From: Procambarus clarkii
Taxonomy: Eukaryota; Arthropoda; Malacostraca; Decapoda; Cambaridae
NCBI RefSeq assembly: GCF_040958095.1
Contig: NC_091181.1
Span: 31,026,029-31,090,028, forward strand
Direction: 5' to 3'
DNA: 64,000 nt
Shown here: positions 50,890 to 61,674 of the stretch, piece by piece
Layout of the letters: each line of letters opens with the position of its first letter
How positions within the stretch are numbered: position 1 is the stretch's first letter
Notes under the pieces: model-generated
The model's input: only the letters and a program-made list of their open reading frames with translations
Told to the model about the DNA's origin: nothing
Databases searched by the model: none
Made by a program: the position numbers and the translations under genes

Positions 50890-51087
50890 TCACTTACTTT
50901 CAATATAGAGGATGAAACCTGTTATTAGGAAAAGAACTAGAAGTGAAAAAATTGTGGTGATTGCAAAGATGATCCCACAGCTACACTGGTGGCATTTAGG
51001 GCGTGGTCTGACAGGGCGGTAATTGTCAAGTGCGGTAAATGTTGGTGGGGGGTTGATGGATGAGCATGTTGATGCGCTTTCCTCCTG
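50890..51087 (-). CDS. Membrane-protein gene, exon 3 (membrane span)
   Basis: The acceptor is the tandem ATTTCAGCAG, so exon starts at 51087 (CAG) or 51084 (GAG) are both in frame. It encodes 65 residues with the membrane span and stop TGA at 50892-50890. There is no ATG in it, so simple ORF scans miss it. Donor GTAAGT (50897-50892) overlaps the stop. Confidence 0.72.
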   Translation of the reverse strand, partial: QEESASTCSSINPPPTFTALDNYRPVRPRPKCHQCSCGIIFAITTIFSLLVLFLITGFILYIESK

Positions 51088-54000
51088 CTGAAATACAAAT
51101 ATTCATTACTTGTATGCTTTTCATTCTAGTCATAATGCTTACACTAGTATGTATGTATGTATTGCACTTTTTATTTTCATACTATGCAAATTATAATTAC
51201 TGGCAGCAATGCTAAGAATTAAAATTATGCATTGTCACATTTTACATTTTAATTAGACTGATTAACTCCTGATAATGTATCTTTTGAGGGTCATAAAATA
51301 CCCAGCTACCAGTAATCAAACATTTAACACAGAATCTCTTCACATACAGTATTTAGAGTTTTAATATTAAATTTACTGTACTTCCATTGAGAGAGACGTG
51401 ACAAAGTGGCACATTTTTTAGGGGTGTGGGTTATTATATAGAATCTCAATATCAGTATTATATAGAATCTTATTAACCCTTCAGTGATATAAATGGCATA
51501 TAGAGTACAGAAGACTGCATCATGATTTTGAAATGGTATTGAAGCAAAAACTAGGGTTAAAAATGCAGGAGTATTTAATAAATCTGAGGTGGCATTGAAA
51601 CAAAACCAGCATATAAAGACCACACAAGTGCCCTCCCAGGGTGAAAGGGTTAGTTTCTCCGTGTCAGCTTGTTATTCACATGCCGGGTTACTTTTTACAA
51701 CACCTGATAATTTCACATAACCATTTTGTATCTAATATTACAACTAAGCTATATTTTGTGATCCCCATAACTGTGGGGAGGGCAACACTCATCATACTTT
51801 AATTCTCCCTAGTTCAAAATTTGGTAAACACTTTGCATTGACTACTAGCTCAAAGTGGGTATAAGGGATGAGACTGAAAACCATGGAAGACATATGTTGC
51901 TTAAAAGCTTATTTAAAGATACAAGGCAGATGCTGCATGGTTCAATGAAAAGGTCAAGAGGTTATTCAGAAGAAAAGGGCTGCATGGAAAATATTGTGCA
52001 GAAAGACGTGCATGTTCTCGTGAGCTCGAGAGAGTGAGAGCGAGTGTACGAATATATGAATGAATTTAACTCGGAATATAATATTTGTAAAATGATTATG
52101 AGGAAAATGGTTAGGGATGAAAAAGGTAAAGGCTGATGATTTTTGGAGAAAGTGGAGTGAGTACAATTTAAGACATTTAAAGTACAGTATGTTAAAGATT
52201 AAAGATAGTTATGATAGGGAAATAGGGTAGTTATATAGAGTAAAGAACCACACACAGTGGTTACTATGTCTTACCTTCCACTGACACTCTTTACATGGTT
52301 GTGAATCATACACGCAGCCTTTGTGTGAACACCAGAGTGAAGCTCGAGGAATGTGCCAGTAGTTGTCATAGAGTGTGCCCGCTTCTAGCTCCTTTCTCTC
52401 ATTGCCACTGGTGTGCCTGGACCCAAAGCTCTGTGGCAGCTCGGGTGATGGTGGCTGGAGTATCAGTCTTGGATCGTATTGTCTACTTTCTGCACGAATC
52501 TTTGGCCGGACCATGTATCTAGATTCAGGCTTCCGGGAGGTTCTTGGCGATGCCGAGCGTATTGTGTAGGAAGTGTCATACTCTGGGTATTCGGAGGGGT
52601 GGGAACCTAACATAAAGTTAGGTTCGTATCTTGAGGCTTCGGGGGTAGGTGTTCTGCGAGCATAGTGTAGTCTTCCGCTGTGGCTTCTGCTAGTGTTTAT
52701 GACGCTCAGACGGTTGTTGTGTGTGGGTGCGGTGTCGCGTAGCATATATTTAGTGGAGCCACCTGAACCTGAGCTCATTGTGGCACCACCAATTGTGAAG
52801 CTAGTTGAACCAGCCTGTAAGAGAAAGATAAAGAATTTAATTGACAATAAAAAACTAGTTTAAATTTAAGTTTTTAAGATGGGCACCAAACTAAGTGTTT
52901 TACTTAATGGACACAAGTGTATCAAAATCAGGTGAATAAATATTACATATTCTTCCTTTTATTGGGATGCATGTATGTGCATATATGTATGCATGATGTA
53001 TGTTTTATATGTGTATATATATATATATATATATATATATATATATATATATATATATATATATATATATATATATATATATATATATATATATATATAT
53101 ATATATACACACACACAAATGTACACACATTCTCACAAACAAATGAGATACATGAGGAATTTTCTTCAGTACAGCCCTATTGGAATGCCACCTTTTCTAT
53201 TGTGCAGGGATTGCCTGCTGAGACGACTTAAAAGACCCAAACATGGGAGACAGACCTGGACAGGTATTGCCTTAGGTCTGTCTCCCATATGTCCCCCCCC
53301 CACATCCATCAGTATCCATCTATCTGTCCATTTTTTCATCCATCCATTGATATATTGATTTATATATTGATTTATATATCCATCCACCTACTCATCTTTC
53401 TATCCATCTATCTATCCTCTATCCATCCATCTGTCCATCTACCTATTTGTCTCTATCCATGCACCTGTACATCCTTCTATACATATTCATCTATTTATCC
53501 GTCTTTCCATCCATCACTATCCATCTACTGGCTTTCTCTGTCTGTCTCTGTCTCTCATAAAAATACAACTGTCTAATGTGTAGGTGGTTGCCAGAGAGTG
53601 GAGCTTAGCTCACTCTACATATAACCTGTTACGGGCTATTCATGCCCATGCCACCTCTTGGGTGGCTTAAATTCTGAAATTCTAAAAAAAAAAAAGAAAA
53701 GAATAGCCCTTATGCTGATAAAGGACCGGGCCGCGGGGACACTAAAAAGCCCCGAAATCATCTCAAGATAACCTCAAGATAACCCCGACCAGCCTATGTT
53801 CATCCCGTACCCCAGACTATGCTCCGTCAATTTGGGTGAGGCCCCAACCGTGTGGCCTCCAACCTCGAACAGACAGACAGACAGACATTCTCCCTTTATA
53901 GTATAAATACATAGCAGCTGCGTAGCGAGATCTTGCGTTCTTTGTATGCCGTGTTTCTTCTCGTAGCCAAACTGGTCAAACAACCTTCAAGACCTCGTTG

Positions 54001-61574: not shown

Positions 61575-61637
61575 GCTGTGAGTGGCTCCTGGTGGCCAGT
61601 GGAGGTATACCTTCGTGGCAGCACAAGAGTCAAGGTA

Positions 61638-61674
61638 ACACTGACCGTCACGGAACACGGAGCGACTTATATGC
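61638..61674 (-). promoter_or_regulatory. TATA plus initiator core promoter
   Basis: On the minus strand CATATAAG (TATAAG at 61671-61666) lies 29 bp before the A of TCAGT (61644-61640), the arthropod initiator. This spacing is the classical one. It predicts transcription start at 61642 and a 68-nt 5' UTR without upstream ATGs for the membrane-protein gene. Confidence 0.72.

Follow-up and report, generated by a model that had tools for sequence, protein, structure and literature searches.

A minus-strand candidate gene for a single-pass membrane protein starts within a NudC intron

The window, by which we mean the whole 64-kb stretch of DNA that was analysed (C32:31026029-31090028), was studied together with a wider region of 264 kb. 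On its plus strand lie exons of NudC, located by tblastn with human NudC:

33740..33805, plus strand, NudC exon, the first found of the host gene
41274..41357, plus strand, NudC exon, matched stretch
42306..42494, plus strand, NudC exon, matched stretch, with a Pfam NuDC match below the cut-off
44936..45040, plus strand, NudC exon, the last found before an intron of about 140 kb

The rest of NudC was recovered about 140 kb further on, as plus-strand matches at C32:31211428 and 31212992 that carry the CS domain; 121 of 8416 candidates were scored in this distal search, which leaves room for a nearer exon outside the window. Because plus-strand NudC exons lie on both sides, these matches place the start of the membrane-protein gene described below, which runs antisense, inside the ~140-kb NudC intron; full nesting within the intron depends on the position of the last exon of that gene. 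In Drosophila, where about 6% of genes are given as intronic, 2mit lies in this way inside timeless2 (PMC3786989). The likeness is one of arrangement, an intron of one gene harbouring a protein-coding gene of opposite orientation; the host gene differs, being NudC here.

The 3' part of NudC is present twice, at C32:31211492-31214722 and 31303139-31306360, about 92 kb apart, and the copies are 99.3% identical over 3.2 kb, intron included; either the segment was duplicated in tandem very recently, or the assembly has left a haplotype uncollapsed here. Between NudC exons, at 36591-39290 on the minus strand, a retrotransposon-like pol consists of two adjoining ORFs in the same frame with a single stop between them, and the piece at 36594-37874 matches integrase families.

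The membrane-protein gene lies on the minus strand, with the following elements in the order of transcription:

61666..61671, minus strand, TATAAG, starting 29 nt 5' of the A of TCAGT
61640..61644, minus strand, TCAGT, initiator-like, with the A at 61642 as putative +1, 68 nt 5' of the ATG
61443..61574, minus strand, exon 1, coding part, 132 nt, 44 aa, donor AGT/GTGAGC of 5.0 bits
52275..52814, minus strand, exon 2, 540 nt, 180 aa, acceptor of 12.3 and donor of 11.0 bits
50898..51087, minus strand, exon 3, 190 nt (63 aa plus 1 nt), carrying KCHQCSC and the membrane span
50892..50897, minus strand, splice donor of exon 3, AAA/GTAAGT, 9.5 bits
49841..49884, minus strand, candidate last coding exon, acceptor of 9.4 bits, adding MVLKHQTANVTDRM and then a stop
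49623..49628, minus strand, AATAAA, about 250 nt past the candidate last exon, with many others nearby

Joining and translating the three exons reproduced the coordinates and the phases that the earlier note had assigned to them: the lengths are 132 + 540 + 190 nt, all joins are in phase 0, and in-frame stops are absent over the 287 codons. The ATG at 61574 stands in the context AGCATGG, with A at -3 and G at +4. Scored with a generic metazoan matrix, the splice sites of exon 2 are strong, the acceptor of exon 3 is fair (6.7 bits at 51087, with an alternative of 9.6 bits three bases on, at 51084) and the donor of exon 1 is moderate. The spacings between TATAAG, TCAGT and the ATG agree with the earlier description, but the label of a textbook promoter does not survive, because a pair of TATAA[AG] and TCAGT at 28-32 nt, which occurs once in the window, would turn up 0.85 times per 64 kb by chance alone, so that the promoter is suggestive at most. 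About 1.5 kb upstream of the putative promoter, a 28-bp minisatellite of about 31 copies (63138-64000) extends to the end of the window.

Within the translated product, two elements were placed by hand from the exon coordinates:

52284..52331, minus strand, C-x4-C-x6-C-x2-C cluster, residues 206-221, from exon 2
50902..50976, minus strand, membrane span of 25 residues, 262-286, by hydropathy, from exon 3

The 25-residue span, said earlier to follow basic residues and Cys, is real by hydropathy: its 19-residue mean Kyte-Doolittle value reaches 2.74, it is the one hydrophobic region above 1.6, a hydrophobic N-terminus is absent, and residues 238-257 contain 4 K/R. The C-x4-C-x6-C-x2-C arrangement in exon 2 is also present, and all 8 Cys of residues 1-262 fall at 206-261 (clustering P 8e-5), while the loosely repeated Tyr-Arg motifs attributed to the protein are not enriched (9 vs 6.1 in shuffles, P 0.14). 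Ser, Pro, Thr and Arg are abundant in residues 1-250, and residues 1-262 hold six Ser/Thr-Pro sites together with three Asn-X-Ser/Thr sites, the latter in the N-terminal part. AlphaFold applied to exon 2 alone gave low confidence along the whole length (mean pLDDT of 44.6) and nearly no secondary structure, a result compatible with disorder, although the support that it lends is weak because the prediction used a single sequence without an alignment.

Long internal exons were sought with an acceptor of at least 8 bits, a donor of at least 9 bits and a length of at least 300 nt. Exon 2 is the sole such exon on the minus strand of the 264-kb region, the plus strand of which yields 11 overlapping candidates at three places, and none arose on either strand of 40 order-2 Markov windows (2.56 Mb) generated from the window's average composition, whose G+C content is lower than that of exon 2. 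The open frame containing exon 2 spans 216 codons; the longest frame exceeded 180 codons in 3 of 30 Markov windows and 216 codons in one of the 30, and when the model is given the composition of exon 2 itself, 0.4% of frames of 180 codons are free of stops. The ORF length of exon 2, taken alone, is not decisive as coding evidence; with both splice sites, exon 2 convincingly exceeds chance. The claim of a minus-strand protein-coding gene for a membrane protein is well supported by the exon phases and by exon 2 with its two splice sites. A codon model trained on 4103 kinase codons from the same genome gave P values of 0.01 to 0.03 (exon 1), 0.05 to 0.07 (exon 2) and 0.10 to 0.27 (exon 3). Since the frame of exon 2 was not favoured over its other frames, and since a synonymous-codon test on three NudC exons was significant for none of them (P 0.87, 0.78 and 0.11), codon usage neither helps nor hurts the case.

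The earlier note had named membership of exon 2 in a known repeat family as an observation that would speak against a gene. A DNA search with exon 2 and its flanks against the genome (4,027,284,227 bases in 2308 contigs), which passes over very common words, returned exon 2 itself as the one match. When the protein was compared with the genome, 46 candidates were scored, and at E<=0.001 just the query's own two exons were found; 7 further weak matches elsewhere (E 0.5 to 8.5) appeared up to the limit of E 10. With no second copy detected by DNA or protein search, there is no sign of a repeat or transposon origin, which, together with the corrected gene model and the gene start inside the NudC intron, is what the analysis adds.

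The 3' end requires a correction of the gene model. Exon 3 had been proposed as terminal, closing a 289-residue product at a TGA (50892..50890), which is probably wrong: the first base of this stop is the last base of the donor GTAAGT, the end of exon 3 reading ATT GAA A/GTAAGTGA. Donors of at least 9.4 bits occur at 0.26 per kb in Markov sequence, compared with 0.31 on the minus strand of the window, and at only about 0.3 per kb a donor placed exactly at the stop is unlikely by chance. From the 9.5-bit donor overlapping the stop codon, we conclude that the gene probably continues beyond it, in phase 1. A protein that ends after all in ...LYIESK at TGA 50892..50890 would suit the frame, which is open to that stop, and the AATAAA that follows at 50450, but given the rarity of such donors we regard this ending as improbable.

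Candidate last exons were taken from acceptors of at least 7 bits within the next 21 kb. Our favoured guess, from the splice signals, is the acceptor at 49884, 1 kb downstream. Sequences resembling branch points stand near its -21 and -27, and its use would give a 14-residue tail; the stronger acceptors at 47091 (12.7 bits) and 48932 (10.8 bits) would add 3 and 2 residues, respectively. The codon score of an exon at 45614 is P 0.02 to 0.03, against P 0.2 to 0.4 (not significant) for that at 49884. The exon at 45614 (9.4 bits, 34 residues) was set aside as repeat-like because it lies in a G+C-rich stretch and its peptide resembles, by eye, one at -181058.

The protein could not be placed in a family, in agreement with the earlier note. 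The 287-aa sequence matched no Pfam family (best RNF111_N, E 0.46, below the cut-off) and no PDB sequence (best E 0.12), and exon 2 had no relatives among viral contigs and prokaryote genomes, as expected of an animal gene; these four collections hold few animal sequences or none. Literature searches with peptide strings of the protein returned no match, and those on uncharacterised arthropod type II proteins gave no lead.

About 69 kb downstream of the membrane-protein gene, on the same strand, lies a further gene:

-18272 to -26834 (window coordinates), minus strand, IGFBP-Kazal-Ig gene with signal-peptide, IGFBP, Kazal and Ig exons

The IGFBP, Kazal and Ig exons were confirmed by Pfam. The gene has the layout of the secreted protein IGFBP7/KAZALD1, a type to which the androgenic-hormone binding protein of decapods belongs. 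Fusion of exon 3 to its exons was rejected, the IGFBP exon needing two upstream bases where exon 3 leaves one, and a linker exon of suitable phases at -6822 was discarded in turn, as the join would lose the first two IGFBP cysteines. Because of this phase mismatch, and because the IGFBP7/KAZALD1-like gene is supplied with a phase-compatible signal-peptide exon of its own, it is a separate gene and not the ectodomain of the membrane protein.

We lean towards a real, single-copy antisense gene, probably of the crayfish Procambarus clarkii, that starts in the NudC intron and encodes a small single-pass membrane protein with a short C-terminal tail. Such a protein would consist of a disordered part of about 260 residues, with much Ser, Pro, Thr and Arg and with the Cys cluster at its membrane-proximal end, then a single span of 25 residues, and finally a short tail encoded by at least one further exon. 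Its N-terminus is predicted to face the cytosol, given the lack of a hydrophobic N-terminal stretch and the basic residues before the span; the three Asn-X-Ser/Thr sites in the N-terminal part point against this topology and would fit a location outside. The Cys cluster might be palmitoylated or bind zinc, fixing the cytosolic tail to the membrane, and the tail itself might act as a phospho-regulated scaffold through its six Ser/Thr-Pro sites, with little of the protein outside the cell.

Large type II proteins, teneurins among them, typically have a cytosolic part of about 260 residues ahead of the span, and the three exons could instead be the start of a protein of this kind, whose ectodomain would be spread over additional exons, past the NudC start for instance. 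The strong donor that ends exon 3 and the length of the cytosolic part speak for such an extension, and teneurins share with the protein described here an extended N-terminal region that lacks a hydrophobic signal stretch and leads into a single span. However, teneurins carry a Ten_N domain, to which the 287-aa protein has no Pfam match at E<=1; a Ten_N search of the genome returned no match, but its control likewise matched nowhere. Over about 250 kb downstream, neither the exons of right phase nor the minus-strand frames showed, by eye, an EGF, NHL or YD exon, or any recognisable domain ahead of the IGFBP-Kazal-Ig gene, in a scan that detects exons of at least 60 nt with splice sites of sufficient strength; the IGFBP-Kazal-Ig gene is ineligible as the ectodomain. 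A membrane-anchored (MACIT) collagen was rejected, as no run of at least six Gly-X-X triplets was found in six frames of the 264 kb, a scan that detects neither shorter runs nor exons farther away. On balance we consider a larger type II protein unlikely, though it is the most serious competitor of the small protein. Chance exons or a decayed remnant, leaving no functional gene at all, would account for the failure to find a homologue, the uninformative codon usage and a promoter motif expected by chance; against them stand the absence of any exon-2-like exon with both splice sites from the Markov sequence, the frame uninterrupted through three exons and the lack of a second copy, and we give this explanation little credence.

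More speculative still than the small membrane protein as such is its elaboration into a lineage-specific scaffold, confined to decapods or to crayfish and absent elsewhere in animals, that would be co-controlled with NudC and whose span would be preceded by a novel juxtamembrane Cys motif, C-x4-C-x6-C-x2-C ... C-x2-C-x-C; we see this as a long shot. Single-pass membrane proteins without a recognised domain are common, and the gene fits best as another, unnamed, gene for such a protein, now with a model that probably extends beyond the proposed stop. Nested genes are common too (PMC3786989), and this gene alone opens no new question.

Elsewhere in the region, the three plus-strand places with long internal-exon candidates (-122690, -100267 to -99212 and -95568 in window coordinates, about 95-123 kb left of the window) have open candidates that reach 1548 nt and are flanked by strong splice sites; they may be genes or mobile elements. 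A 180-codon open frame on the plus strand (13791-14333) contains long Ser and Lys runs and has no Pfam match. A tRNA-like sequence at 23416-23486, plus strand, is the only match in the window to reach the Rfam gathering score (44.7 bits) and may be the head of a SINE.
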